Below, piece by piece: positions 40,619 through 55,545 of a DNA stretch of 64,000 nucleotides; position 1 is the stretch's first letter; the number at the start of each line of letters is the position of its first letter. The stretch comes from Lentisphaerae bacterium WC36 (lineage in GTDB: Bacteria; Verrucomicrobiota; Lentisphaeria; Victivallales; SZUA-371), in assembly GCA_020683205.1 (NCBI GenBank), contig CP085689.1:992001-1056000 (forward strand), written 5' to 3'. Both the position numbers and the translations under genes were made by a program. The notes beneath the pieces are model-generated. The model had not been told where the DNA came from, did no database searches, and saw only the letters and a list, made by a program, of their open reading frames with translations.

Positions 40619-40855
40619 TTAAATATTGATACGTTTTTTACCTCCAGTCCCCATCCCGACAGAACATTGAAAGAATTCTACTGTTGCTTTGTCCTTACAC
40701 AAATATTGTTTTATAAAACTTAAATAGTTTTTGCTATCCTGTTTTAAAAATTGTTCTTTAGTATAAGTTATTGTTTCATATGTTTTAGTTTTATAATTTC
40801 TTCTCCTATGTTGTACAAATAAAGTTTCTTCAAAAAGTTTTAATGCCCCCTCCAT
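40619..40855 (-). CDS. Frameshifted C-terminal half of Rhs toxin tip C
   Basis: Continues the tip of 40840-41589 after a shift in a G-run (GGAGGGGGC): LWRG joins ALKLFEETLFVQHRR. It carries LCKDKATVEFFQCSVGMGTG, the part shared with tip B. A second shift in an A-run then leads to YQYLKEFFGENVEVILYTS and ends at TGA 40512, overlapping the immunity start. Undoing both shifts gives one tip of about 225 residues after the DLLGL motif. Confidence 0.55.
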   Translation of the reverse strand: MEGALKLFEETLFVQHRRRNYKTKTYETITYTKEQFLKQDSKNYLSFIKQYLCKDKATVEFFQCSVGMGTGGKKRINI

Positions 40856-41589
40856 AAATTGGAATTTCTTTCATCTTTAGTAAAACCGTGTTGAATAAGC
40901 ACAATTCTTTCAATACAATGGCAATTTTTATCATATTTTTTCTTTGCGAATTTTTCATTAATAAATCTTTTAAAATGCATTGCAGCACTAATTAACTGAT
41001 CCTTATGACCAAATCTATCGAGAACAATTGCGTCATCAGGTATACCAATAAGTTCATTTTTTTTGTCATTTACAATACCATCAACTTCAAAGGTAAAATC
41101 ATATCTAATAGCAGAGTTATCAGGAGGCGTATAATCATAATAACCTTTTGGTGCAGGTGGGTTATTAGGAGAAGGATATAAACCTAATAAATCAATATAA
41201 TCTATTGGGTTATTACCTACGAAACCGTATAAATTATACCCGCCATTTTCAGCTATTGGGTCGCGTTTTAGCCATTTACCTGTATTTGGGTCGTAATAAC
41301 GGTAATTATAATAGCATAAATTTGTTTCAGAGTCAAAGTATTCGCTTGAAAACTTAAATGGTTGCTCCACGCTCTCAACTTCGTTGATTAGCTTGCCGAA
41401 TGGACTATATTCGTAATTATTAGCTAATGCTCCAGTTTCATCAACTAATTTTATAACGTTTTTGTTGCCATCAAGCATATAATAATAATATTCGCTGTCT
41501 GATTTCATCCACATTGGTGTATCTAAATCAGTGTTGCTCCACGCATATTGACGTAAAACTTCATCACTGTTTAACACGTCATTATACAA
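40840..41589 (-). CDS. Orphan Rhs core fragment with first half of toxin tip C
   Basis: 249 residues. It starts right after the stop of immunity gene B: the Rhs reading (NDVLNSDEVLRQYAWSN) begins without its own upstream core. The core end shows NNYEYSPFGKLINEVESVEQ, YYNYRYYDPNTGKWLKRDPI and YNLYGFVGNNPIDYIDLLGL. The tip has NCHCIERIVLIQHGFTKDER, then a frameshift. Tips B and C share the HCIE-x-I...H pattern and the later KDKATV-x-F-x-QC pattern. HG followed by QC at a distance of about 90 residues recalls the His/Cys dyad of caspase-like (clan CD) peptidases. Confidence 0.6.
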   Translation of the reverse strand: MYNDVLNSDEVLRQYAWSNTDLDTPMWMKSDSEYYYYMLDGNKNVIKLVDETGALANNYEYSPFGKLINEVESVEQPFKFSSEYFDSETNLCYYNYRYYDPNTGKWLKRDPIAENGGYNLYGFVGNNPIDYIDLLGLYPSPNNPPAPKGYYDYTPPDNSAIRYDFTFEVDGIVNDKKNELIGIPDDAIVLDRFGHKDQLISAAMHFKRFINEKFAKKKYDKNCHCIERIVLIQHGFTKDERNSNLWRGH

Positions 41590-41607
41590 TAATAAATTAT
41601 TATCTGT

Positions 41608-42126
41608 TTAATCAAAATTTGGTTTTTCATTGAAAAATAGTTGTTTTCCATCAAATGTCATTCCTATATAAACAATTTTCTCATATTTGATTTCTTTAAT
41701 TTTTTGCAAATTAGTTTGTTTTAATTCAGGTAAATCAACTTTTCGATATATAGCCAATTGATTTTTTATTTTATTATTTTTAATCCCGTCCTTTAACATT
41801 CGAAATATATCCAAATTAGGATTTATTTCATATTTATCAAGTTGTTCAAGTATAGTTTCAAGAAATTCATCTTTAGTGTCAGCTTTTAATTTTCTTAATT
41901 TTGAAACACTATCTATTAAAATGTTCTCATCGTCACAAATTAACAATGTTACACTAATATGATTAATTAAGCCATATTGTTGATATTGTTCTGCTTGTAT
42001 TATATGTGTTCTATGAAAAGTTTCATAATTAGGAGATAGAGAAAATTCTTCATAAAAAAAAGTTATAAAAGCTATGAAAATTAATAAAACACTTATAAAA
42101 TATTTCTTTTTATTTTTCATATTCAT
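41608..42126 (-). CDS. Membrane-anchored immunity-like protein B
   Basis: Start taken at ATG 42124-42126 with AAAGGA upstream. The frame is open to 42213, but that part overlaps toxin sequence. 172 residues: an anchor (KKYFISVLLIFIAFITFFY), then a soluble domain with VTLLICDDENILIDSVSKLR and YEKIVYIGMTFDGKQLFFNE. Size and layout match immunity C. It stays intact although its toxin is frameshifted, as expected if protection still matters after toxin loss. Confidence 0.5.
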   Translation of the reverse strand: MNMKNKKKYFISVLLIFIAFITFFYEEFSLSPNYETFHRTHIIQAEQYQQYGLINHISVTLLICDDENILIDSVSKLRKLKADTKDEFLETILEQLDKYEINPNLDIFRMLKDGIKNNKIKNQLAIYRKVDLPELKQTNLQKIKEIKYEKIVYIGMTFDGKQLFFNEKPNFD

Positions 42127-42234
42127 GTCCTTTGTTTTTTTAAATTTAAAAATTAAACTATTTTGGATAAAGTTTTTCTTTAGTATCCCCATTATATACA
42201 GTCCCTCTATCATATATGATATCTACATCATACA

Positions 42235-42828
42235 TTATAACATCAACATGTTTACCAAAAAATCTTCCAAGTATTTTTTTAATACTTCACCAGATTTATT
42301 TTGTGAAGAGATACATTGAGCAAAGTGAACAGTTGCTTTATCTTTACATAAATATTTCTTAATAGTATTCAAAATTTTCATCGCATTATTATATGCTATT
42401 CTTTCAGCCTCAATAACTGTTTTCGATGCACTTGATATAGATTTATTATTTTTCAATTTATCATCAAAATACGTTAAGCCGTCATACGATAAACTAGCAA
42501 CATCATTTGGGCCTATACCGTCATAATGATTATCATAAAATCGAACAAAAGGTCCACCGGCATGAGCATGAATCATTATATATTCTATACAATGACATTT
42601 TCCATCATATTTTGAATCTTTAAATTTATTCTCTATGTCATTTATTAATTGATCTGCAGTTCGCAATCTTTTAGCATATATATTTTTCATAAATTCTGCT
42701 ATTGGATTACTTTCTTGAACAAAAGTATAACTTAATCTATATCTCTTTATTTTGCAAGGATCCGTTGCTACATATGGAGTACCATAGACTTGCTCATATT
42801 GCCATTTCATAAACTCTGACAATCCCAA
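42235..42828 (-). CDS. Rhs toxin tip B (frameshifted)
   Basis: 197 residues in this frame. The preceding bases read NIDLLGLSEFMKWQ, joining it to the RHS core at 42833-43183 across a small deletion. The tip has KCHCIEYIMIHAHAGGPFVR and LCKDKATVHFAQCISSQNKS, matching tip C. Near the end an A-run shift diverts it. The restored reading FFGKHVDVIMYDVDIIYD runs on to TAG 42158, about 30 bp before immunity B. The His-rich HAHAGG and the FAQC segment are the candidate catalytic dyad of a caspase-like peptidase. Confidence 0.55.
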   Translation of the reverse strand: MGLSEFMKWQYEQVYGTPYVATDPCKIKRYRLSYTFVQESNPIAEFMKNIYAKRLRTADQLINDIENKFKDSKYDGKCHCIEYIMIHAHAGGPFVRFYDNHYDGIGPNDVASLSYDGLTYFDDKLKNNKSISSASKTVIEAERIAYNNAMKILNTIKKYLCKDKATVHFAQCISSQNKSGEVLKKYLEDFLVNMLML

Positions 42829-42832
42829 TAAA

Positions 42833-43183
42833 TCAATATTGCTTATTTACAAAGCCGTAGAGGTTAAATCCGCCTTGTTCGGCGATTGGGTCGCGTTTTA
42901 ACCATTTACCTGCGGTTGGATTGTAATTACGGTAATGGAAGACGATTAGGTTTGTGCTATTATCGAAATATTTCGTGCTAAAGCGATAATGTAATTTATC
43001 AACCATTAAATCACTCGTACTTTTAATCGCTCTAAATGGAGTGTATTCGAAACTTGCAACTTCGTGGCTCGTTTCGAATACATATTTTACAATATTTCCA
43101 TTGCCGTCATACATCGAATAATAATCCTCAGTTGTATCATTCACCGCTAACAAAACACCAATGCCTCCAGTTTCACTTAACAT
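42833..43183 (-). CDS. Orphan RHS core fragment preceding tip B
   Basis: 116 residues of the RHS core end: GVLLAVNDTTEDYYSMYDGN, NIVKYVFETSHEVASFEYTP, HYRNYNPTAGKWLKRDPIAE and FNLYGFVNKQY before a frameshift. The VNDTTEDYYSMYDGNGNIVK stretch is nearly identical to the core fragment of cassette D, so cassettes B and D derive from the same Rhs family. The parental full-length gene is not in the window: the Rhs at 58503 has a different core. Confidence 0.65.
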   Translation of the reverse strand: MLSETGGIGVLLAVNDTTEDYYSMYDGNGNIVKYVFETSHEVASFEYTPFRAIKSTSDLMVDKLHYRFSTKYFDNSTNLIVFHYRNYNPTAGKWLKRDPIAEQGGFNLYGFVNKQY

Positions 43184-43984: not shown

Positions 43985-44076
43985 TATTTTTGCAATTTTA
44001 CATAAACATCTTTCAGATTAGTTTAACCATAATTCATTATTCCAACAATTTAGAGAAGCAATAAAATGGTATTTTC

Positions 44077-44296
44077 TGGCACCAAACGGCTATGATTTTT
44101 TTGAGTTAAAAAACACTGTAAAATCAGCAGTTTTCAATGATCACCAACAAAGTAATTTATTCCACATACCATAATTATTACAAGCAGTTCTTATTGCACA
44201 GTTTTTTAATAATTTATATTTTTGATAACGGTTATGTGGTTTATCGATAGTAGCCATTACTACTAAATTTTTCTCTATTGTAACTTTTGGCAAACA
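44077..44296. repeat. Left copy of a 220-bp diverged direct repeat
   Basis: Aligns along its length with 53982-54215, with blocks such as CATACCATAATTATTA and TTTTTGATAACGG conserved. The minus strand encodes KVTIEKNLVVMATIDKPHNR and YQKYKLLK, the end of a winged-helix domain like that closing many AlbA/ATPase-type and Fic proteins (M-T-I-x-x-K-P-x-S-R-x-Q-K-Y). The rest is its 3' flank. Together the two copies bracket the six-gene operon. The 560 bp from here to that operon show no gene. Confidence 0.6.
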
Positions 44297-44863: not shown

Positions 44864-45976
44864 TTGAAGTTTAATTTTGGGGGTTTTATATTTAGAATAG
44901 AAAAGAGAACTAGTTTTGAATTTATCCGTTACGCAAACTGCTGGGAAGATGCCGATATTTTATTCAAGGCATTAGAACCTAAAGCTGGAAAGCGTATTCT
45001 ATCTATTGCATCTGCGGGGGATAATTCATTAGCATTATTGGCAGGAGGAGCTGAAGTTTTTGCGTTGGATTTAAATAAAACTCAACTAGCTTGTACAGAA
45101 TTACGAAAAGTTGCAATAAAAAATTTGGATTATGAAGAGTGTCTATGTTTTTTAGGTTTCAAGGAATGTCAAAAGCGAATAGGTATTTATAAAAAATTAG
45201 AAAGCTCTCTTTCCAAAACGACTAAAATTTTTTGGAACAGTAATTTAAAAATAATAGAAAACGGACTCATTTATACAGGAAAGTTTGAAAAGTATTTTCA
45301 ATTTTTTAGGAAACATATTATCAGCTTAATTCATTCTAAAACTAGAATTCAACGGCTTCTACAGCCTAAAAATTATGAACAACGAGTTGAATTTTATGAG
45401 AAGGAATGGAATAATTTCAGATGGCGTCTACTTTTTAAAGTTTTCTTCAGCCGTTTTGTAATGGGTCGAATGGGACGTGATCCAGAATTTTTTCGTTATG
45501 TTGATGTACCTGTGGCAGAAAATATTTTAAACCGCACGAAATTTGCATTAACCGAGCTAACTACAGATGATAATCCGTACCTTGATTTTATTTTGACTGG
45601 TGGTTTTCAAAATAACCTACCTTTTTATATGCGTGAAGAAAATTTTTCTAAAATCAAAGCCAACATTGACAATTTGACATTGATTCATGGAGCAATTGAT
45701 AGTTTGCCTAGCAATTATGAATCAAGCTTTGACGGCTTCAATTTATCCGACATCTTTGAATATATGCCAAAAGAGCAATTTTTAACTACCTATCAAACCA
45801 TTCTAAAATATGCATCTTCTAACAGCAAAATCGCTTATTGGAATATGCTCGTGCCACGCAGTTGTCCTGAAGAGCTTGCAAACAGTGTGAAATTAAACGA
45901 AGAACTTTCTGAAAATCTTTTTAAGCAGGACAAAGCATGGTTTTATAGTCGATTTATTGTTGAGGAAACACTATGA
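44864..45976 (+). CDS. DUF3419 / BtaA-like SAM:lipid 3-amino-3-carboxypropyl transferase candidate
   Basis: 370 residues from a TTG start (AGAAG upstream); no internal Met is close to the N-terminus. The N-terminal signature FIRYANCWEDADILFKALEP and the SAM-binding RILSIASAGDNSLALLAGG, then VFALDLNKTQLACTELRK, define the DUF3419 family that includes BtaA, which moves the aminocarboxypropyl group of SAM to diacylglycerol. A C-terminal NLSDIFEYMP segment is also typical. It is the first gene of the coupled cluster. Without a BtaB-type N-methyltransferase beside it, plain betaine lipid synthesis is not indicated. The acceptor may be another lipid or alcohol. Confidence 0.8.
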   Translation: MKFNFGGFIFRIEKRTSFEFIRYANCWEDADILFKALEPKAGKRILSIASAGDNSLALLAGGAEVFALDLNKTQLACTELRKVAIKNLDYEECLCFLGFKECQKRIGIYKKLESSLSKTTKIFWNSNLKIIENGLIYTGKFEKYFQFFRKHIISLIHSKTRIQRLLQPKNYEQRVEFYEKEWNNFRWRLLFKVFFSRFVMGRMGRDPEFFRYVDVPVAENILNRTKFALTELTTDDNPYLDFILTGGFQNNLPFYMREENFSKIKANIDNLTLIHGAIDSLPSNYESSFDGFNLSDIFEYMPKEQFLTTYQTILKYASSNSKIAYWNMLVPRSCPEELANSVKLNEELSENLFKQDKAWFYSRFIVEETL

Positions 45977-47322
45977 TTTTACATAATGATTTATTAGGAG
46001 CATTAATTTTAATATCTTCATTTGTAATTTTAATAATTATTGCCGAATTATTGACAAAATTAGCGAAAATATCCCCAGAAATTAGTCGTAAATTTGTTCA
46101 TTTCTTTTGTGGAATTTCCTGCTTAGCATTTCCTTTTTTAGTTATGAAAGTGTTGACGGTATTTTTTATTGCAACGCTATTTGCATTATTTTTATTTATT
46201 AGTGGCAAAATGGGAAAACTTAAATCTATTCATGGTGTAAAACGTGATAGTTTTGGTGGTGAATTGTATCCGTTTAGCGTTTTTGCAATTTTTTATATAT
46301 GTCAAGACCATCTTTGGTTATATTTTATATCAATCTTAATTCTAACTACCGCAGATGCTGGAGCAGCTATTATAGGTAGTAATTACGGAAAAATTTTTTA
46401 TAAAATTGACGAAGTTAATCAAAAAAGTCTCGAAGGTTCAACCATATTTTTCCTTTTAACTTTACAAGTTATTCAGTTGCCCTTACTTTTAATGACTGAC
46501 ATTCCAAAAGCAACTGTGGTTTTATCTTCACTATTAGTTGCCCTGTTATTAACTGGAGTTGAAGCTATTTCTAGCAGGGGAACGGACAATATTCTTGTGC
46601 CAGTCATTGCTTGTTATGTATTACTGAAAATTACGACTAAGCCATTTTCAGAAGTTGCATTTCAGTGTATTAGTTTAAGCTTACTGGCAACTATAATGTT
46701 TACAATAAATCATTTTGTTAAGTTTTACAGGCTACGTGATACAATTATAATGCTGTTATTTTTCTATGCAGTTTGGTCACTATGCTCAATTTACTGGGCT
46801 CTTCCCCTATTCGCAGCCTATGCTGTCTACTTACTAAGTAAAAGTGTTATTCCAAATAAAAATAACTACAAAATCATTCATGGAGCTGTTTCAAAATCTC
46901 TAATTACGCCTTTATTAATTGTTTTTATTGCCAATTTCTACTCAAACTATAACTTTTTTTATGAACCGTTTGTTGTCGCAATTGCCCTAACAGCCATTAA
47001 TAGCCATATGAACTATTTCTGTAACCAGTTGGATTTGAAAAAATTTTCCAATAAACTTTTAATTATTGGTTTAACACTGCTTTGCATAGTTGCAGTATTT
47101 GGTGTTACATGCTGGACAGTGTCATCATTTAATATAACTGCTATTGCTATTGAAATTGGTGTGGTGATAATTTTTGCTATTATATTTAAAGTTTACCTAG
47201 GTAAGCCTAACGGACTTCCTTTAAATATGCGACAGGCACATATGGTATGGATTTTATCATTTATTGCTTCTGCTATTATTAGTATGTTGGAGTTTGCAAA
47301 CATATTTAACGTTTGGAGATAG
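45973..47322 (+). CDS. CTP-dependent lipid/polyprenol kinase-like membrane protein
   Basis: 449 residues and about 12 membrane helices. The N-terminal half has family signatures of the SEC59/DGK1/VTE5 (dolichol, diacylglycerol or phytol kinase) group: EISRKFVHFFCGISCL, LTTADAGAAIIGSNYGK and the nucleotide-site KSLEGSTIFFL. Kinases of this group phosphorylate lipid alcohols using CTP. The C-terminal half (from about 230) is a second hydrophobic module with no clear match, so this is an extended or fused form. It overlaps the previous gene by 4 bp (ATGA). Confidence 0.75.
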   Translation: MILHNDLLGALILISSFVILIIIAELLTKLAKISPEISRKFVHFFCGISCLAFPFLVMKVLTVFFIATLFALFLFISGKMGKLKSIHGVKRDSFGGELYPFSVFAIFYICQDHLWLYFISILILTTADAGAAIIGSNYGKIFYKIDEVNQKSLEGSTIFFLLTLQVIQLPLLLMTDIPKATVVLSSLLVALLLTGVEAISSRGTDNILVPVIACYVLLKITTKPFSEVAFQCISLSLLATIMFTINHFVKFYRLRDTIIMLLFFYAVWSLCSIYWALPLFAAYAVYLLSKSVIPNKNNYKIIHGAVSKSLITPLLIVFIANFYSNYNFFYEPFVVAIALTAINSHMNYFCNQLDLKKFSNKLLIIGLTLLCIVAVFGVTCWTVSSFNITAIAIEIGVVIIFAIIFKVYLGKPNGLPLNMRQAHMVWILSFIASAIISMLEFANIFNVWR

Positions 47323-47327
47323 AATTT

Positions 47328-48434
47328 ATGAGTGACTATCAAATTTACTGTCTGCATGAAAACCCCAATTACTACAGTTTTTTTTCAGAGATTCCAAAGA
47401 AAATATATGAAAATGACTCAAATTATACAAAAGAGGATTCAAAAAAAGTTTTAGCTGAAATTAACCGATTTAGTGATGATAGTTGCCTACCATTAGTAGC
47501 TGTAAAAAACGGCATGGCATGTGCTCGACTTTGTGCTATTATCCCCGATATTCCGCTCAAAGGGTATGAAAAAGAAAAGGTTGGCTTGATTGGTTACTTT
47601 GAAGCGTGCAATGATTCAGACATAATCAAGGCGATCCTTGACGAAGCGATTGAATGGTTTGCGAAAAAAAATATTTCTAAAGTTATTGGACCAATGGATG
47701 GAGACACTTGGCATCGTTATCGTTTTGTTTCAGAACAAAGTGATAATCCAGTTTTTTTATCGGAACCTTATAACCCTGATTATTATTCAGAACTGTGGGA
47801 AAATTATGGTTTTAAAAAACTTGCAGGCTATTATTCAAAGTTTATTCCAAACGTCGAATTTGCGCTGCCAATTATGGAAAGGTTTTATAAACGTGCCGTT
47901 CGTAATGGGTTTACGTTTCGTACCTTTAATACCGATGATTTCGAAAATGAATTGAAGAAAATTTATGAGATTTCATGTGATTCATTCAGCGACAATTTTC
48001 TCTATAAAGAAATTGATAAAAAAGAATTTATAGCATTATATGACAAAGCGAAAAAAATTATTAAGCCTGAATTAATTTGGTTTTGCTATGATAAGAATAA
48101 TGTTCCTTGTGGTTTTGCGTTTGCAATTCCTGACTATGGAGAAATGTTACGAAATTTACTGCAAAAATCGTTAATAGCAAAACTCAAAGCGCTCTGGAAA
48201 TTTCATTTTTACGACACTGTAAACTTAAAGTCCATCGGCTCGCTAAAACGCTATAAAAATAAAGGTGTAGGTCCTGCTTTAACTTATAAAATTTATGAGA
48301 GCACTAGGAAGTTAAAGAGAAAAAAAGTAAATATGTGTTTAATTCATGATAATAACGTTTCAGGTCGTCTAGATGGCGACCATGGTGAGGTTTTTCGCAG
48401 GTATACCATTTATGAGAAGGATATTAAAAAATGA
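47328..48434 (+). CDS. GNAT-like acyltransferase family protein
   Basis: The frame is open from a TTG at 47313, but GGAG at about 47315 fits ATG 47328 (368 aa). Two-domain GNAT-like layout: SFFSEIPKKIYEND and an acetyltransferase core with IGPMDGDTWHRYRFVSEQ and FLSEPYNPDYYSELWENYGF, and a second part with ELIWFCYDKNNVPCGFAFAI and LKRYKNKGVGPALTYKIYES. The GPMDGDTWHRYRF signature is found in E. coli YghO-like proteins of unknown substrate. Acyl or aminoacyl transfer to the pathway intermediate is plausible. It starts 5 bp after the upstream stop. Confidence 0.7.
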   Translation: MSDYQIYCLHENPNYYSFFSEIPKKIYENDSNYTKEDSKKVLAEINRFSDDSCLPLVAVKNGMACARLCAIIPDIPLKGYEKEKVGLIGYFEACNDSDIIKAILDEAIEWFAKKNISKVIGPMDGDTWHRYRFVSEQSDNPVFLSEPYNPDYYSELWENYGFKKLAGYYSKFIPNVEFALPIMERFYKRAVRNGFTFRTFNTDDFENELKKIYEISCDSFSDNFLYKEIDKKEFIALYDKAKKIIKPELIWFCYDKNNVPCGFAFAIPDYGEMLRNLLQKSLIAKLKALWKFHFYDTVNLKSIGSLKRYKNKGVGPALTYKIYESTRKLKRKKVNMCLIHDNNVSGRLDGDHGEVFRRYTIYEKDIKK

Positions 48435-50005
48435 ATATTGTAAGTTATCTTGATGAACATGCAGAAAAAATTCCAGACAAAATTGCGCTCAGCATGCGTT
48501 TAAATAATAAAACTGAAATGATAACCTTTAGAGAGTTGCATGAAAAAAGTGCAACCTTTGCTTCGGCAATGAAAAAAATTGGTTTGAAGCCAAAAGATAG
48601 AGTTATTTTGATGATTCCAATGTCAATTGAACTTTATGTTGCAATGTTAGGTTTAATTAGAATGGGTGCTGTTGTTATTTTCATAGACCCATGGATTAAG
48701 TTACGTCAAATTGCTGCATTTGCGACTTTTAGCGAGGCAAAGGCCTTTATTGGCATTGGTAAAAGTCACATTTTACGACTGCTAGATAAAAGGTTATTCA
48801 AGTTGCCAATTACAGTAACTACAACCAATTCTTTTTGTGGGTTCCCTGCAAAATATTCATACAACAAAATAATGGGCAATGCCAAAGCTGATTACTCTAT
48901 TTTTGACTGCTCAGTTGAGGATTCAGCTCTAATTACATTTACAAGTGGTTCGAGTGGATTACCTAAAGGGGCTAACCGTACACACGGTTTTTTAAATGCT
49001 CAGCACAAAGCTTTGCAAAGTGAATTTAGCTATAATGATAATGATGTTGATATGCCTATGTTTCCAGTCTTTGCTCTTAATAATTTAGCACGCGGAATCA
49101 CTTCTGTGATTCCTGATATTGACTTCAAAAATATTTCTAATATTGCAGTAGATAAAATAATAGATCAAATAAATGAATTTAAAGTCACAACCGCAACGGC
49201 TTCACCGCCATTTTTCCTGCAACTTGCAAATTCAAAGGAAGTAAAAAATATGAATTTACGCCGTATTTTAACTGGTGGAGCGGCAATTTCTGCATCTGAG
49301 CTTAAAATTTTACGCAAAGCATGGGAAATAAGCGATATACAAGTTGTCTATGGTTCAACTGAAGCGGAACCCGTTGCGCATCTAACTCTTGAAGAACGGC
49401 TTGAAATCGAAGAGAAAAATTTTAAAGGCTACTGCATTGGTAAGCCTATAGAGAAACTTAAAACTGCTGTTATTGCAATTACTAAAGAAGATGTAAAGTG
49501 GAATCAATCTTATAAAAGTTTAGCGTTACCTCAAGGAGAAGTTGGCGAACTAATTGTTAGTGGCGACCATGTTTGTAATAGCTACTTCAAAAATGATGAA
49601 GCAGTTAAGTCTAACAAAATTATTGATAATGAAAATCAGCTTTGGCATCGTATGGGAGATACAGGTTATTTTGACGAAAATGGCTATTTTCATCTTGTTG
49701 GCAGAGTTCATAGTACAATTTTTTGTAAATCAGGGCTGGTTCATGCTCAACTTATAGAAAAAAAGGTACAGAATTTTTTAAGCGTACGAACAGCTTTATT
49801 AGCTTTGCCTGCGGAAAATGGGTTTGAAAAATCCGTATTAATAGTCACAGGGAATGAAGATTATGAAATTAAGCAAAAACTGCTAGCAATTTCTGAAATT
49901 GATGAGGTAATATTCATAACGAAAGCATTTCCACTTGATCCTCGTCATAAAAGTAAAGTTGATTATATAAAACTTAAAGAAATGATTATGGAAGGAAAAA
50001 TTTGA
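48431..50005 (+). CDS. AMP-forming acyl/aryl ligase (ANL superfamily)
   Basis: 524 residues. The adenylation motifs are complete: phosphate loop LITFTSGSSGLPKGANRTHG, the YGSTEAEPVAHL region, and GDTGYFDENGYFHLVGR before the hinge. A C-terminal lysine candidate is in RHKSKVDYIKL. It activates a carboxylate as the acyl-adenylate, then passes it to CoA, a carrier or an amine. The N-terminus (YLDEHAEKIPDKIALSM) is like fatty-acyl or OleC-type ligases. No carrier protein is present in the cluster. It overlaps the GNAT-like gene by 4 bp (ATGA). Confidence 0.88.
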   Translation: MNIVSYLDEHAEKIPDKIALSMRLNNKTEMITFRELHEKSATFASAMKKIGLKPKDRVILMIPMSIELYVAMLGLIRMGAVVIFIDPWIKLRQIAAFATFSEAKAFIGIGKSHILRLLDKRLFKLPITVTTTNSFCGFPAKYSYNKIMGNAKADYSIFDCSVEDSALITFTSGSSGLPKGANRTHGFLNAQHKALQSEFSYNDNDVDMPMFPVFALNNLARGITSVIPDIDFKNISNIAVDKIIDQINEFKVTTATASPPFFLQLANSKEVKNMNLRRILTGGAAISASELKILRKAWEISDIQVVYGSTEAEPVAHLTLEERLEIEEKNFKGYCIGKPIEKLKTAVIAITKEDVKWNQSYKSLALPQGEVGELIVSGDHVCNSYFKNDEAVKSNKIIDNENQLWHRMGDTGYFDENGYFHLVGRVHSTIFCKSGLVHAQLIEKKVQNFLSVRTALLALPAENGFEKSVLIVTGNEDYEIKQKLLAISEIDEVIFITKAFPLDPRHKSKVDYIKLKEMIMEGKI

Positions 50006-50943
50006 TGCTAAGCAATTCTTCACCCTTTTTAAGCCGTTTAAACGCCTATTTTAAAGAGCGTTTTCCGTTATTCAGTCATGGAATTTTAATCATTAGTTAT
50101 TATTCCTCAAATCAATTTTTAGCGCAAATTTTGCAAAACCCAGATCAGCCAGTTAAATATAGTTTTAACTCTCTTTTAGGTGTTATTACTTTGTTCATGA
50201 TTTTTTTGCATTTGCGAGTTTTTGACGAACATAAAGATTATCAGGAAGATTGCAAATATTATCCTGAACGGCTTCTTTCTCGTGGTATTATTACTTTAAA
50301 AGAACTGAAATTTCTTGGAGCAATTGCGATTGGATTTGAATTATTAATCGCATGTTCTTGCGGCTTCAATGTTTTGTCAAGTGTACTCTTAGTGCTGGCA
50401 TTTTCTGTATTAATGTTAAAAGAATTCTTTGTTGGTAAGTGGTTAAAAAAACATTTTTTAATTTATGCCACGAGTCACATGTTAATTATGCCTTTAATGT
50501 CATTAATGGTCTTTAGTTTTACGACATCTTTTGCTCCTTGGGAAGCTCCAGCGTGGTATTGGCTTTATGCATTTGTAGGTTTTTTCGTTACTTTTAACTG
50601 GGAAGTTTCAAGGAAAATCAGAACGCCTGAAGATGAAAAGAAAGGGCTTGATAGCTATTCAAAAATATTCGGCACCTATGGTGCTGCTTATATGGTGATT
50701 TTAATTCGTGTCATTGATACGCTAATGGTTGCATTTGTAGGTTGGTATTTAAATTTGAGCTATCGATTTTATTTAGTTTTAATTACACTTTTTCTAGTGT
50801 GTTGCATTGGTTTATATCAGTTCCGCTTTAACACTTGCAGAAAAACTGCCCGCAGAATGGAAACATATGCGGGGATGTATATTATTGTTTTTGACTTAAC
50901 TTTAGCTATAGAAATATTACTTCGTTATTCTATTCAACTTTGA
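50002..50943 (+). CDS. UbiA-family prenyltransferase-like membrane protein
   Basis: 313 residues with eight or nine membrane helices. The first Asp-rich site is LRVFDEHKDYQEDCKYYPER, a D-x-x-x-D variant of the UbiA NDxxDxxxD. The second is WEVSRKIRTPEDEKKGLDSY, matching the DxxxD of the other half, with K-G-L-D-S-Y-S-K as in chlorophyll synthase/UbiA relatives. It probably moves a prenyl or other pyrophosphate-activated chain onto an acceptor in the membrane. It overlaps the ligase by 4 bp. Confidence 0.8.
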   Translation: MMLSNSSPFLSRLNAYFKERFPLFSHGILIISYYSSNQFLAQILQNPDQPVKYSFNSLLGVITLFMIFLHLRVFDEHKDYQEDCKYYPERLLSRGIITLKELKFLGAIAIGFELLIACSCGFNVLSSVLLVLAFSVLMLKEFFVGKWLKKHFLIYATSHMLIMPLMSLMVFSFTTSFAPWEAPAWYWLYAFVGFFVTFNWEVSRKIRTPEDEKKGLDSYSKIFGTYGAAYMVILIRVIDTLMVAFVGWYLNLSYRFYLVLITLFLVCCIGLYQFRFNTCRKTARRMETYAGMYIIVFDLTLAIEILLRYSIQL

Positions 50944-50954
50944 GGTTTTTTATT

Positions 50955-53669
50955 ATGGATTCAGCATTTTACTATTTTGAAAACAGCTCCGCCACAGTAT
51001 CAACTATTGGTGGAAAAGGTTATAATTTAGCACTTTTATCACGAGAAAAATTTTCAGTTCCTGCTTGGTATGCAGTCAAAGCGTTATCTTTTCGAGACGC
51101 TTTAAAGAATAATAACTTAGAGATTGAATTTGAACAAACTCTTGCATCGCTTGATTCATCTATGAATTCTGATCAAATTGACAAAAAATTGAATGAATTA
51201 AGGGGAAAAATTCTTTCTATGAATTTGAGCACTAACTTTTGTGACGAACTGAAGAATTTTCATCAAAAATTAATTGGTAACGAAAAGTTTTTTTCAGTGC
51301 GTTCTTCTGCAGTTGACGAAGACAGTGGAAATGCCTCATTTGCTGGAATGCACGAAAGTTTTATGTACGTTAAAGGCATAGATCAACTTCAATATGCGAT
51401 AAAAAAAGTCTGGCTATCATTAATCAGTACGCGGGCATTAGCTTATCGTCTAAAAGGAGGACTAAATCTTAAAAATTTAAGTATTGCTGTTGTTATTCAA
51501 GAGATGATTAACGCTAAATCCAGTGGCGTAATATTTACAGCAAACCCAAATTCAGGCAATGTTAGAGAGTTAATTATTTCATCACTTTTTGGAGCAGGAG
51601 AAGGACTTGTTAGCGCAGGACTGGAAGCAGACGATGTTACTGTCAATAAATTTACGGGAGAAAATGACTGGAATGTTGCAGTTAAAAAATTTCAACTGGT
51701 GCATGATAAAAATGATGCAGGGTTAGTACAAGAAGCATTGTCTGAGGAGAAAACACACACTCCGTCCCTTAATGAGTCGGCTGTTAAAGAATTAACTTCT
51801 ATTGGAAAAAAAATAGAAAAATTTTACCGTTGTCCTCAAGATATTGAATTCTGTATAGACTATGAAAATAAAGTAAAAATTCTACAAAGCCGACCAATAA
51901 CGACTTTAAAAGAAGACGGACCTGCGGCAGGAAATCGTTTAATTTGGGACAACTCAAATATTGTTGAAAGTTATTCAGGCCCAACAACTCCAATGACTTT
52001 TAGTTTTATAAGACGGGCATATAGTAGTGTTTATAATTGCTTTTCAGAAGTCATGGGCATTCCACCTGAAATAATAAAGGAAAACAGTACCGTTTTTGAA
52101 AATATGCTCGGATTGATTCACGGTCAAGTCTACTACAACATTTATTCATGGTATGAGCTAATCAAACAATTCCCTGGTTTTAATTATAATAAGACTTTTA
52201 TGGAGTCGATGATGGGAGTTAAAGAAAAGACAGATACAAATAAAAATGATGAATCTGTTTCTTTTTTTAACAGATATTTCATTGAACTTCCTAAATTAAT
52301 TAAATTAGTATTACGTTCGGCAAATAATTTCCGCAAAATTGATAAGCTTGCAAACCAATTTGATGACCATTTCATGAAGCACTACAATCATTGGGAGGCT
52401 CTTGATATGTCAAAAATGTCGCCTCATGAATTAATGGAAAATTTTCAAAAAATGGAAACGGCTCTGCTCTCTAACTGGAAAGCTCCTATTATTAATGACT
52501 TTTACGTTATGATTCATTATGGTGTATTGAAAAAAATCTGTACAAAGTGGTGTAATGATGAAAATGGTACATTGCAAAATGATTTAATTTGCGGTGAAGG
52601 AAATATTGAAAGCACAAAGCCAACTCATTTACTTATGAGCATTGCTCAAAAAATTAAATCAGACAAAAATTTAAGTGATAGTTTTAGTAAAAACTCTGTT
52701 CAAGAATTAATTGACATTGTTAACACAGATCCTAATTTTGAATGGCTGAAGCAAAAAGTTGATTTTTATCTAAAAGAATACGGTTTTCGTTGTATAAATG
52801 AACTAAAATTAGAAGAGCCTTCACTGCGAGAAATGCCTGATTTTATATTTCAAATGATAAAGAATTATCTCAAAATGGATGATGAATCTATTAACTCTGA
52901 GGTGATGAAAAATAAAGAGATAAAGATTAGAAGAAGGGCTGAAAAAACTGCTTTTAGTAAAATGTCATTTTTAAAACGAAGCATTTTTAAATATTTTGTC
53001 AAAAGTTCGCGCAAAGGAGTTCGCAACCGTGAAAATATGCGCTTTGCAAGGACAAGAATTTATGGCAAAGTTCGAGAAACGATGAATAGCATTGGTAATA
53101 TTTTCGAAAAAGAGGGCATTTTAGATAATTGCCAACATATTTATTATCTTACAGTCGATGAAGTTTGGGATTTTGTGCGTGGAACTGCAGTTTGTACTAA
53201 TTTAAATGGATTAGTTAAATTAAGAAAAGAGGAATTTGACTTTTATAACTCGAATGAAATTGATCCCATTTCTGATAGATTTGAAACCTATGGCATGGTT
53301 TACCACCATAATCTTTTCAAAAATTATAGCGTGCAAATCGAAATAAAAGAAGGTGAACTTCAAGGTGTTGGTTGTTGCCCAGGAGTTATTGAAAAAGAGA
53401 TTAGAGTGTTGCATTCTCCTCAAGATGGCGCAGACCTTAATGGTGAAATCCTTGTTGCTGGAAGGACTGACCCTGGTTGGGTTCCACTTTACCCTGCAGT
53501 ATCAGGGATTCTTATTGAACGTGGAAGCATTTTGTCGCATTCGGCAATTGTTGCTCGTGAAATGGGTATTCCAATTATCGTTGGCATTCCAAATTTAATG
53601 GAAACTCTCGAAAATGGTCAAATTGTAAAAATGGATGGTAGTTCAGGTATTATCATAACCACACCTTAA
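50955..53669 (+). CDS. PEP synthase/rifampin phosphotransferase-like dikinase
   Basis: Start at ATG 50955, preceded by GAGG; the TTG at 50940 is rejected. 904 residues. An N-terminal ATP-grasp PPDK_N domain has TIGGKGYNLALLSREKF, SVRSSAVDEDSGNASFAGMH and IQEMINAKSSGVIFTANPNS. A long middle domain (about 330-800) has no clear match. The C-terminal swivelling His domain has GRTDPGWVPLYPAVSGIL and RGSILSHSAIVAREMGIPII, with the phospho-accepting His. There is no PEP-binding barrel, so it resembles rifampin-type phosphotransferases that split ATP and phosphorylate an alcohol of a small molecule. In this operon it could phosphorylate the lipid or prenyl product. Confidence 0.82.
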   Translation: MDSAFYYFENSSATVSTIGGKGYNLALLSREKFSVPAWYAVKALSFRDALKNNNLEIEFEQTLASLDSSMNSDQIDKKLNELRGKILSMNLSTNFCDELKNFHQKLIGNEKFFSVRSSAVDEDSGNASFAGMHESFMYVKGIDQLQYAIKKVWLSLISTRALAYRLKGGLNLKNLSIAVVIQEMINAKSSGVIFTANPNSGNVRELIISSLFGAGEGLVSAGLEADDVTVNKFTGENDWNVAVKKFQLVHDKNDAGLVQEALSEEKTHTPSLNESAVKELTSIGKKIEKFYRCPQDIEFCIDYENKVKILQSRPITTLKEDGPAAGNRLIWDNSNIVESYSGPTTPMTFSFIRRAYSSVYNCFSEVMGIPPEIIKENSTVFENMLGLIHGQVYYNIYSWYELIKQFPGFNYNKTFMESMMGVKEKTDTNKNDESVSFFNRYFIELPKLIKLVLRSANNFRKIDKLANQFDDHFMKHYNHWEALDMSKMSPHELMENFQKMETALLSNWKAPIINDFYVMIHYGVLKKICTKWCNDENGTLQNDLICGEGNIESTKPTHLLMSIAQKIKSDKNLSDSFSKNSVQELIDIVNTDPNFEWLKQKVDFYLKEYGFRCINELKLEEPSLREMPDFIFQMIKNYLKMDDESINSEVMKNKEIKIRRRAEKTAFSKMSFLKRSIFKYFVKSSRKGVRNRENMRFARTRIYGKVRETMNSIGNIFEKEGILDNCQHIYYLTVDEVWDFVRGTAVCTNLNGLVKLRKEEFDFYNSNEIDPISDRFETYGMVYHHNLFKNYSVQIEIKEGELQGVGCCPGVIEKEIRVLHSPQDGADLNGEILVAGRTDPGWVPLYPAVSGILIERGSILSHSAIVAREMGIPIIVGIPNLMETLENGQIVKMDGSSGIIITTP

Positions 53670-53981
53670 AAATGTTTAATCATTTTAAATTTATCAAAAT
53701 ATTGATTCATATAAAATAAGTTTAAGTGTGATATATCTATATGCAATTACCATTTTGAGCAGAAAATACCTGATTTAACTCGATTTGAGTATATTTCGAT
53801 TCACAGAAGATTTCTTTTTGTAATTTTGAGTATAAAATGGCACTCCGGGAATGGCTGCCTTATTTTAAGATTAACCTCAAAATTTGTAATTTTTAAGTTC
53901 AAAATGTCTGATTTAGCTAAATTAATGTGAAAAATAAAATCATTAAAAAACGGTACTTTTTGGCACTGAAAAACTCTTTTA

Positions 53982-54215
53982 TGGCACCAAATGGTTACGA
54001 TTTTTTGAGTGCAAAAAACACTGTAAAACCAACAGTTTTTCAATGATAACCAATAAACTAATTTACCACCATACCATAATTATTATAAGCAGTTTAATGA
54101 TTCTTTTATTATTAAACAGTGTTCTGTTAATTTACTTTTTTTGATAACGGCTTCGTGGTTTATTAGATATTGTCATTGCTACTAAATTTTGCTCTATTGC
54201 AACTTTTAAGTAAAC
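53982..54215. repeat. Right copy of the diverged direct repeat, with gene relic
   Basis: The same order of blocks as at 44077-44296. The minus strand here extends further into the parent gene: VKKLLFALDGECSINELLEK, LSLKD, a stop, KSFREVYLKVAIEQNLVAMT and ISNKPRSRYQKK (54330 down to about 54130). That is the C-terminal winged helix of an ATPase/Fic-type protein. The copy lies 310 bp beyond the six-gene operon. The gap 53670-53981 shows no gene. Confidence 0.6.
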
Positions 54216-54979: not shown

Positions 54980-55545
54980 ATTCTCAAGAATTAAAAAGCT
55001 AGAGCAAAGTCAAGAGAAATGTGAAGCATTTTCACCAGACGAGTTAACCCTAATATTTGAAAAAGCAAACGACTTTATTATAGGTTTATTTATTATAGGT
55101 TTATACATAGGATTATGTGAAGCTGATATCTGTTTGTTGAAGTGGGAGTATGTCAATCTTAATGAAGGTTTAATCACCCGTATGATTTTATGCCACCATT
55201 AGCAACTTTTTTGCAAGAACAAGCATTTAAAGGCAAATCTGAATACATATTGCCAGAACAACCCGAAATGTATAAGAAAAATGTTTCAGGGATTTCTCAT
55301 CGAGTTAAAAAGTTCCTCGAAAGCGTCAATATCATTACAAGCAAAGTTCCTAAAGGTCGTACACGAGCAGTAAATGTAAAAGATGTACATAGCCTGCGCC
55401 ATTTATTCTGTTATTATGCTGGGATGCAACAACGTTCCTCTAGCAGTAGTGCAAGCCGTAGTCGGTCATATGTCTCCAGAAATGACAAAACATTATTCAA
55501 TTCACGCAAAAGAATGCATTTAAAAAATATGAATGTTTAACTTTA
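54980..55545 (+). pseudogene. Broken tyrosine recombinase (integrase) C-terminal domain
   Basis: Fragments in three frames line up with the catalytic domain of a tyrosine recombinase: EAFSPDELTLIFEKANDFII, GLYIGLCEADICLLKWEYVN, then VKDVHSLRHLFCYYAGM and, after a shift, NNVPLAVVQAVVGHMSPEMT with KHYSIHAKE. The H-x-x-R, the GH and the nucleophilic Tyr are recognisable. The first catalytic Arg (GLR in intact enzymes) is Cys here. With shifts near 55190 and 55430 it is inactive. Its presence marks this boundary as an old integration site. Confidence 0.7.

Follow-up and report, generated by a model that had tools for sequence, protein, structure and literature searches.

The 64,000-nucleotide stretch of DNA analysed here, referred to as the window, lies on the single 3.66-Mb contig of Lentisphaerae bacterium WC36, a Victivallales-type bacterium (CP085689.1, positions 992,001 to 1,056,000), and has a GC content of about 30%. 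Between positions 44864 and 53669 its plus strand carries six intact open reading frames (ORFs), g1 to g6, which are arranged head to tail and form one translationally coupled system. The first, g1 (44864-45976, 370 amino acids, with a tentative TTG start), encodes a DUF3419 protein of a subfamily shared by such operons, and g2 (45973-47322, 449 amino acids) encodes a polytopic membrane protein with an N-terminal half of predicted CTP-dependent lipid or prenol kinase type. These are followed by genes for a protein of the tandem-GNAT N-acyltransferase type (g3, 47313-48434, 373 amino acids), an AMP-forming acid ligase of the PRK09274/OleC-like branch (g4, 48431-50005, 524 amino acids), a prenyltransferase of the UbiA superfamily (g5, 50002-50943, 313 amino acids) and a three-domain dikinase of the phosphoenolpyruvate (PEP) synthase/rifampin phosphotransferase/PigC type (g6, 50940-53669, 909 amino acids). 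If the first possible starts are used, the successive junctions overlap by 4, 10, 4, 4 and 4 bp, and if the in-frame ATGs at 47328, 50005 and 50955 are used, three of them become a 5-bp gap, a 1-bp overlap and an 11-bp gap. The spacing given in a preliminary description of the locus, according to which the genes overlap by 4 bp or lie within 12 bp of each other, is a fair summary.

Searches against Pfam identified DUF3419 (PF11899, E 1.4e-61) in g1, AMP-binding (PF00501, E 8.4e-51) in g4, UbiA (PF01040, E 1.2e-11) in g5 and both PPDK_N (E 1.7e-72) and PEP-utilizers (E 1.1e-23) in g6. The GNAT match of g3 was weak (E 0.0044), and g2 of the window had no Pfam match. Taken together with homologue alignments and structure models, the results confirmed the family that had been proposed for each of the six genes.

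To define the distribution of the operon, we searched 198 related genomes for operon-type g1 (E < 1e-170), g2 (E < 1e-38) and g3 (E < 1e-60). All three were found in the same 6 genomes and in no other; weaker DUF3419 matches among these relatives represented BtaA-like paralogues where checked, and the operon was absent from G001-G003, the three genomes listed for the family of the window genome. When named genomes were scanned with the g1 alignment, 309 stretches that encode a relative were obtained, and 80 loci were taken from these. The dataset contained 82 non-duplicate loci. All six genes were present together in 35 of the 82 loci, many of the others being truncated by contig ends, and three pairs were stable across the dataset, with g1 and g2 adjacent in 67/70, g3 and g4 in 45/49, and g5 and g6 in 52/52 cases. 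The order within the pairs was constant except in two cases, while the order of the pairs varied between loci. The evolutionary distances of every gene pair were correlated across the loci, and none of 199 permutations gave a correlation as high. The occurrence of the gene set as a unit is far beyond chance. Hosts were found in Planctomycetota, Verrucomicrobiota, Kiritimatiellota, Lentisphaerota, Thermodesulfobacteriota, Myxococcota, Acidobacteriota, Bacteroidota, Omnitrophota, Deinococcota, Chloroflexota, Fibrobacterota and others, amounting to more than 12 phyla in all. Most of the hosts are metagenome-assembled genomes, so that binning errors may account for single placements.

The neighbours are therefore conserved together both in relatives and across phyla, and with their catalytic motifs kept they can be treated as the single system that had been suggested for the window. 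A lack of such conservation in relatives had been named beforehand as a finding that would overturn the suggestion, and the set withstood this check. It had also been argued that intact genes in a region full of pseudogenes must be under selection; the case for selection is better made from the conservation across relatives than from the decay of the flanks. The set is not confined to six genes: one resembling 3-hydroxy-3-methylglutaryl-CoA (HMG-CoA) reductase, which the preliminary description did not mention, is its usual seventh member.

Several observations bear on how the operon came to be so widespread. All six genes are present in the cultured alphaproteobacterium Roseinatronobacter sp. 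S2, where they are located on a plasmid (NZ_CP121116.1, 128207-136191; locus L101) in the order g5-g6-g1-g2-g3-g4. In a tree of g1, the window sequence grouped with Desulfobacterales-type sequences and with that of locus L009. The g1 genes of L011 and L012, two loci from the same taxonomic order as the window, were placed in a distant clade, indicative of either transfer or deep paralogy.

The CWED, SxxSxGDN, GRDPxFF and NLSDIFEY motifs are conserved in the g1 family (73 sequences). We aligned the operon g1 proteins with six paralogues from the same class, whose BtaA-like nature is judged from sequence and neighbour rather than from an assay. The paralogues contained SAGCN, GVPRxQ, LLDHxDW, R(S/G)A and DRVxTYG, whereas the operon proteins contained SxG(D/E)N, GRDPxF, LSxIFEY, (Y/F)WN and DKAxFY or DKGFFY at the corresponding positions. 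A search for the closest solved structures of g1 returned none. Judged by these motifs, operon g1 is a DUF3419 subfamily separate from BtaA, and the label BtaA-like used previously was too close. This bears directly on whether the operon could specify a betaine-lipid pathway of the diacylglyceryltrimethylhomoserine type, in which g1 would act as BtaA on diacylglycerol and the remaining genes would modify the product. The protein does belong to the Pfam family for which BtaA is the characterised function, and it shares the core that binds S-adenosylmethionine (SAM) and the CWED motif. However, it is devoid of the BtaA signature motifs, no BtaB-type methyltransferase was found among the ORFs of the operon or among the recurrent neighbours, and five further enzyme families are present instead. 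Furthermore, 3 of the 6 operon-bearing related genomes contain a separate BtaA-like gene. We rejected the betaine-lipid pathway on the motifs and the missing BtaB, and consider it extremely improbable. A transfer of an aminocarboxypropyl group from SAM by g1 is a prediction from the family rather than an identification.

In g2, residues E36, R39, K40, H43, D128, K151, S152, G155, E197, D205 and N206 are conserved, and the RKxxH, DAxA, KSxEGS and DNxxVP motifs of CTP-dependent lipid kinases are kept in 44-59 homologues. Only 3 of 44 family members matched CTP_transf_1 (PF01148). The N-terminal half is accordingly of a predicted CTP-dependent lipid or prenol kinase type, similar to Dgk1, Sec59 and VTE5, while the C-terminal half is an extra membrane module. 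A fold search with the whole g2 model (predicted local distance difference test score, pLDDT, of 93) gave no significant match, the local Foldseek likeness to the CDP-diacylglycerol synthetase structures 4q2e/4q2g (E 0.3, prob 0.9) being not significant by E-value. We also considered a VTE6-type C-terminal half: DUF92/VTE6 (PF01940) was not matched by any of the 44 g2 homologues, and the structure search offered little information beyond the local CdsA-like hit. For the UbiA protein g5, D75, D79 and D83 of the first Asp-rich motif as well as R204, K205 and E212 are conserved (45 sequences).

The assignments of the other three proteins were examined in the same manner. The AlphaFold model of g3 (pLDDT 94.9) has two GNAT domains in tandem, and the GNAT Pfam domain was matched by 32 of 36 members of the family. 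Its best match in the PDB was the tandem GNAT 7q3a (Z 22.3, root mean square deviation 4.1 over 304 residues with VIA-align), and N-myristoyltransferases were found lower among the structure matches, at Z of about 15. A likeness of g3 to bacterial ceramide synthase may also be considered. For g4, the closest models were those of the PRK09274 ligases (398 bits) and the OleC beta-lactone synthetases, and the FTxGxxGxPK region is conserved along with D503, R505, H506 and K509. The OleC scores (241 and 238 bits) were nevertheless less than a third of the equivalog cut-offs (850 and 900), all equivalog cut-offs were missed, and the operon contains no OleA, OleB or OleD partner. The domain order of g6 and its conserved phosphotransfer histidine (His867 in an SHSAIVARE motif) resemble those of Rph, PEP synthase and PigC. 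It differs from these dikinases in scoring below every equivalog cut-off (317 against 999 bits for RIF_Ptrans_rph, 802 against 883 for PRK06241.2-2 and 269 against 740 for PEP_synth; a second PRK06241.2 model gave 727 bits, also below its cut-off), and in having a UbiA neighbour in each of the 52 loci that contain both genes. On these scores, we rejected identities as olefin-forming OleC, Rph and PEP synthase.

The seventh gene encodes a protein of about 427 amino acids that resembles class I HMG-CoA reductase (HMGR) and is present in 50 of the 82 loci, mostly adjoining g1 or g5. In these proteins all four catalytic residues (Glu, Lys, Asp and His) are invariant, whereas the scores are below the class I equivalog cut-off. 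We screened 24 host genomes for isoprenoid pathway genes. IspH of the methylerythritol phosphate (MEP) pathway scored over the cut-off in 18 of them, while HMG-CoA synthase and mevalonate kinase did so in 2 each. Since the hosts mostly have the MEP pathway and no HMG-CoA synthase, the HMGR-like protein of the cluster probably has no role in the mevalonate pathway in the majority of them, and that pathway was rejected on host gene content. The window genome contains IspH, no match to HMGR (PF00368), no HMG-CoA synthase and, for mevalonate kinase, only a match below the cut-off; nor was a remnant of an HMGR gene found in the window. In two loci, the HMGR-like protein is fused to an APH/choline-kinase-like domain (L058:4612-7359 and L090:7257-10010), so the alcohol that it makes is probably phosphorylated.

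These features invite comparison with the salvage of phytol and farnesol by VTE5, FOLK and Sec59, in which kinases feed a UbiA enzyme. Here, the ligase would activate a prenoic acid, the reductase would convert it to a prenol, g2 and g6 would form the diphosphate as VTE5 and VTE6 do for phytol, UbiA would produce a redox lipid similar to quinones or tocopherols, and g1 and g3 would do no more than decorate it. The VTE5/Sec59-type motifs of g2, the Asp-rich motif kept in a UbiA protein of the same operon, the reductase-kinase fusions and the missing link between HMGR and the mevalonate pathway are all in line with such a scheme. It is set against the absence of DUF92 matches among the 44 g2 homologues, the lack of an aromatic-precursor gene in the cluster and the absence of the reductase from the window. 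Moreover, the dikinase, DUF3419, GNAT and ligase genes have been added to what salvage involves, and g1 and g3 are constant members of the set, not late additions. We consider this scheme rather unlikely.

A clue to the chemistry comes from loci in which the third gene has been exchanged. A formyltransferase (PF00551) is encoded in six loci (L030, L044, L052, L054, L057 and L090), none of which contains the GNAT gene. Among loci with at least 4 of the genes g1, g2, g4, g5 and g6, none contained both, 5 contained only the formyltransferase, 49 only the GNAT protein and 3 neither (Fisher p 1.3e-5, relatedness being ignored in this test). Mapped onto the g1 tree, the exchange requires four changes. 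It is most simply explained by an amine that receives an acyl group in one branch and a formyl group in the other. This points to N-acylation of an amine that the DUF3419 protein could supply from SAM; DUF3419 enzymes of the BtaA kind make such an amine from SAM. The same exchange is relevant to the possibility that mevalonate serves as the acyl unit, so that HMGR would make mevalonate, the ligase would activate it and the GNAT protein would transfer it to the amine in the manner of SidI and SidF. The trio of HMGR, AMP ligase and GNAT has a precedent in fungal siderophores and the catalytic residues of HMGR are intact. We regard this route as very unlikely, given that HMG-CoA synthase is below the curated cut-off in 22 of the 24 hosts, the HMGR of the cluster is below that for the class I equivalog, the ligase persists in loci in which the GNAT protein is replaced, and the window contains no HMGR.

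Combining the observations, we suggest that a horizontally transferred operon makes a lipid-like product with an N-acylated, and in some relatives N-formylated, aminocarboxypropyl core on an isoprenoid or lipid alcohol. In this proposal, the AMP ligase g4 would activate a carboxylic acid, and the HMGR-like enzyme, where present, would reduce an acyl-CoA to the alcohol. One or two phosphorylations of this alcohol would follow, carried out by g2, the membrane kinase, and g6, the dikinase, and the UbiA protein g5 would attach the chain from the resulting diphosphate to an acceptor. The DUF3419 protein g1 would add a 3-amino-3-carboxypropyl group from SAM, the amine of which would be acylated by the GNAT protein g3. 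The product would then represent a new class of bacterial lipids or lipid-like compounds, with an N-acyl or N-formyl aminocarboxypropyl head, a chain derived via a repurposed HMGR, two phosphorylation enzymes and UbiA, and its putative pathway would have spread as a mobile unit over more than 12 phyla. We estimate the probability of this reading as a whole at roughly 0.4. A lipid or prenyl product, as had been envisaged for the window, is plausible from the families and neighbours rather than demonstrated, and the final phosphorylation that was part of the earlier scheme is not supported.

Some of the data fit the proposed N-acylated lipid less well. As g1 differs from BtaA in several conserved motifs, the aminocarboxypropyl transfer is not assured, and the protein could transfer a methyl or another group. 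The HMGR-like gene is absent from the window genome, from the Roseinatronobacter plasmid region and from some other loci, so the alcohol route is not uniform, and the window genome must obtain the alcohol in some other way. Independent-pairs tests of the mutual exclusivity of GNAT and formyltransferase were underpowered (2-4 pairs). The ligase is kept together with the formyltransferase, leaving the pairing of g3 with g4 without an obvious chemical reason in that branch. Finally, in the Pirellulaceae-type loci L026, L027 and L043, where neither g2 nor HMGR was detected, the cluster runs on into genes for a major facilitator superfamily (MFS) exporter, a cytochrome P450 and a sulfotransferase, a variant that is as compatible with a secreted metabolite as with a membrane lipid.

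The latter variant raises the question of whether the proposed acyl, prenyl and aminocarboxypropyl chemistry produces a small exported secondary metabolite, such as a signal, an antibiotic or a metal-binding compound. A patchy, horizontally spread distribution would be consistent with this, as would the efflux, P450 and sulfotransferase genes of the three Pirellulaceae-type loci. On the other hand, transporter and tailoring genes are absent from most loci, the membrane kinase g2 is of the lipid type, and some loci are neighboured by LplT/Aas-like fusions of MFS, acyltransferase and AMP ligase domains or by MMPL proteins, both of which point to lipids. We find an exported metabolite of this kind somewhat unlikely, and a membrane lipid is slightly favoured over an exported lipid-like metabolite.

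The preliminary description knew of no pathway that uses this set of genes. We found no paper in the open-access literature, to which the search was confined with subscription papers outside it, that combines these families or describes the gene set; the operons described in the Lipocone paper are other ones (PMC12419801). Thus, the enzyme families are known and the pathway is, as far as found, apparently new. We regard the gene set as a lipid-type biosynthetic operon, and there is a substantial chance that its product class is also new. A seven-family set with no assigned product is conserved in many uncultured phyla, with its six-gene core on the plasmid of a cultured alphaproteobacterium, and its g1 proteins delimit a DUF3419 subfamily that is separate from BtaA. 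The operon would also explain why HMG-CoA reductase genes are present in bacteria in which the mevalonate pathway is not used. Roseinatronobacter sp. S2 offers a direct experimental handle for identifying a new lipid or metabolite and its function.

Additional genes were observed in a few of the loci. An Omnitrophota locus contains a BadF/BcrAD-type CoA-enzyme activase fusion of 1441 amino acids between g2 and g4 (L069:12459-16781), and a radical SAM/SPASM gene and a conserved membrane protein are located beside the cluster in two others (L009:5058-7354 and L049:10833-13195).

In the window, a pair of direct repeats, each about 235 bp long and on the plus strand, lies on either side of the operon, the downstream copy (53963-54207) being 77% identical to the upstream copy (44058-44288; E 4e-39), and two further copies are located elsewhere in the genome. 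A decayed, frame-broken remnant of a tyrosine recombinase (integrase) follows at 55020-55530 on the same strand, with a match to PF00589 at 55383-55520 that is below the cut-off (E 0.0025). The repeats and the remnant are weakly suggestive of past mobility of the operon. The operon does not stand out as foreign by base composition (its GC content is 30-34%, versus about 25-35% elsewhere in the window), and a search of viral contigs gave no match. Upstream of the operon, at 40840-43183 on the minus strand, there are RHS/YD-repeat-like fragments such as RYYDPNTGKWLKRDPI, which had no Pfam match at E 0.01 and which resemble decayed RHS genes.

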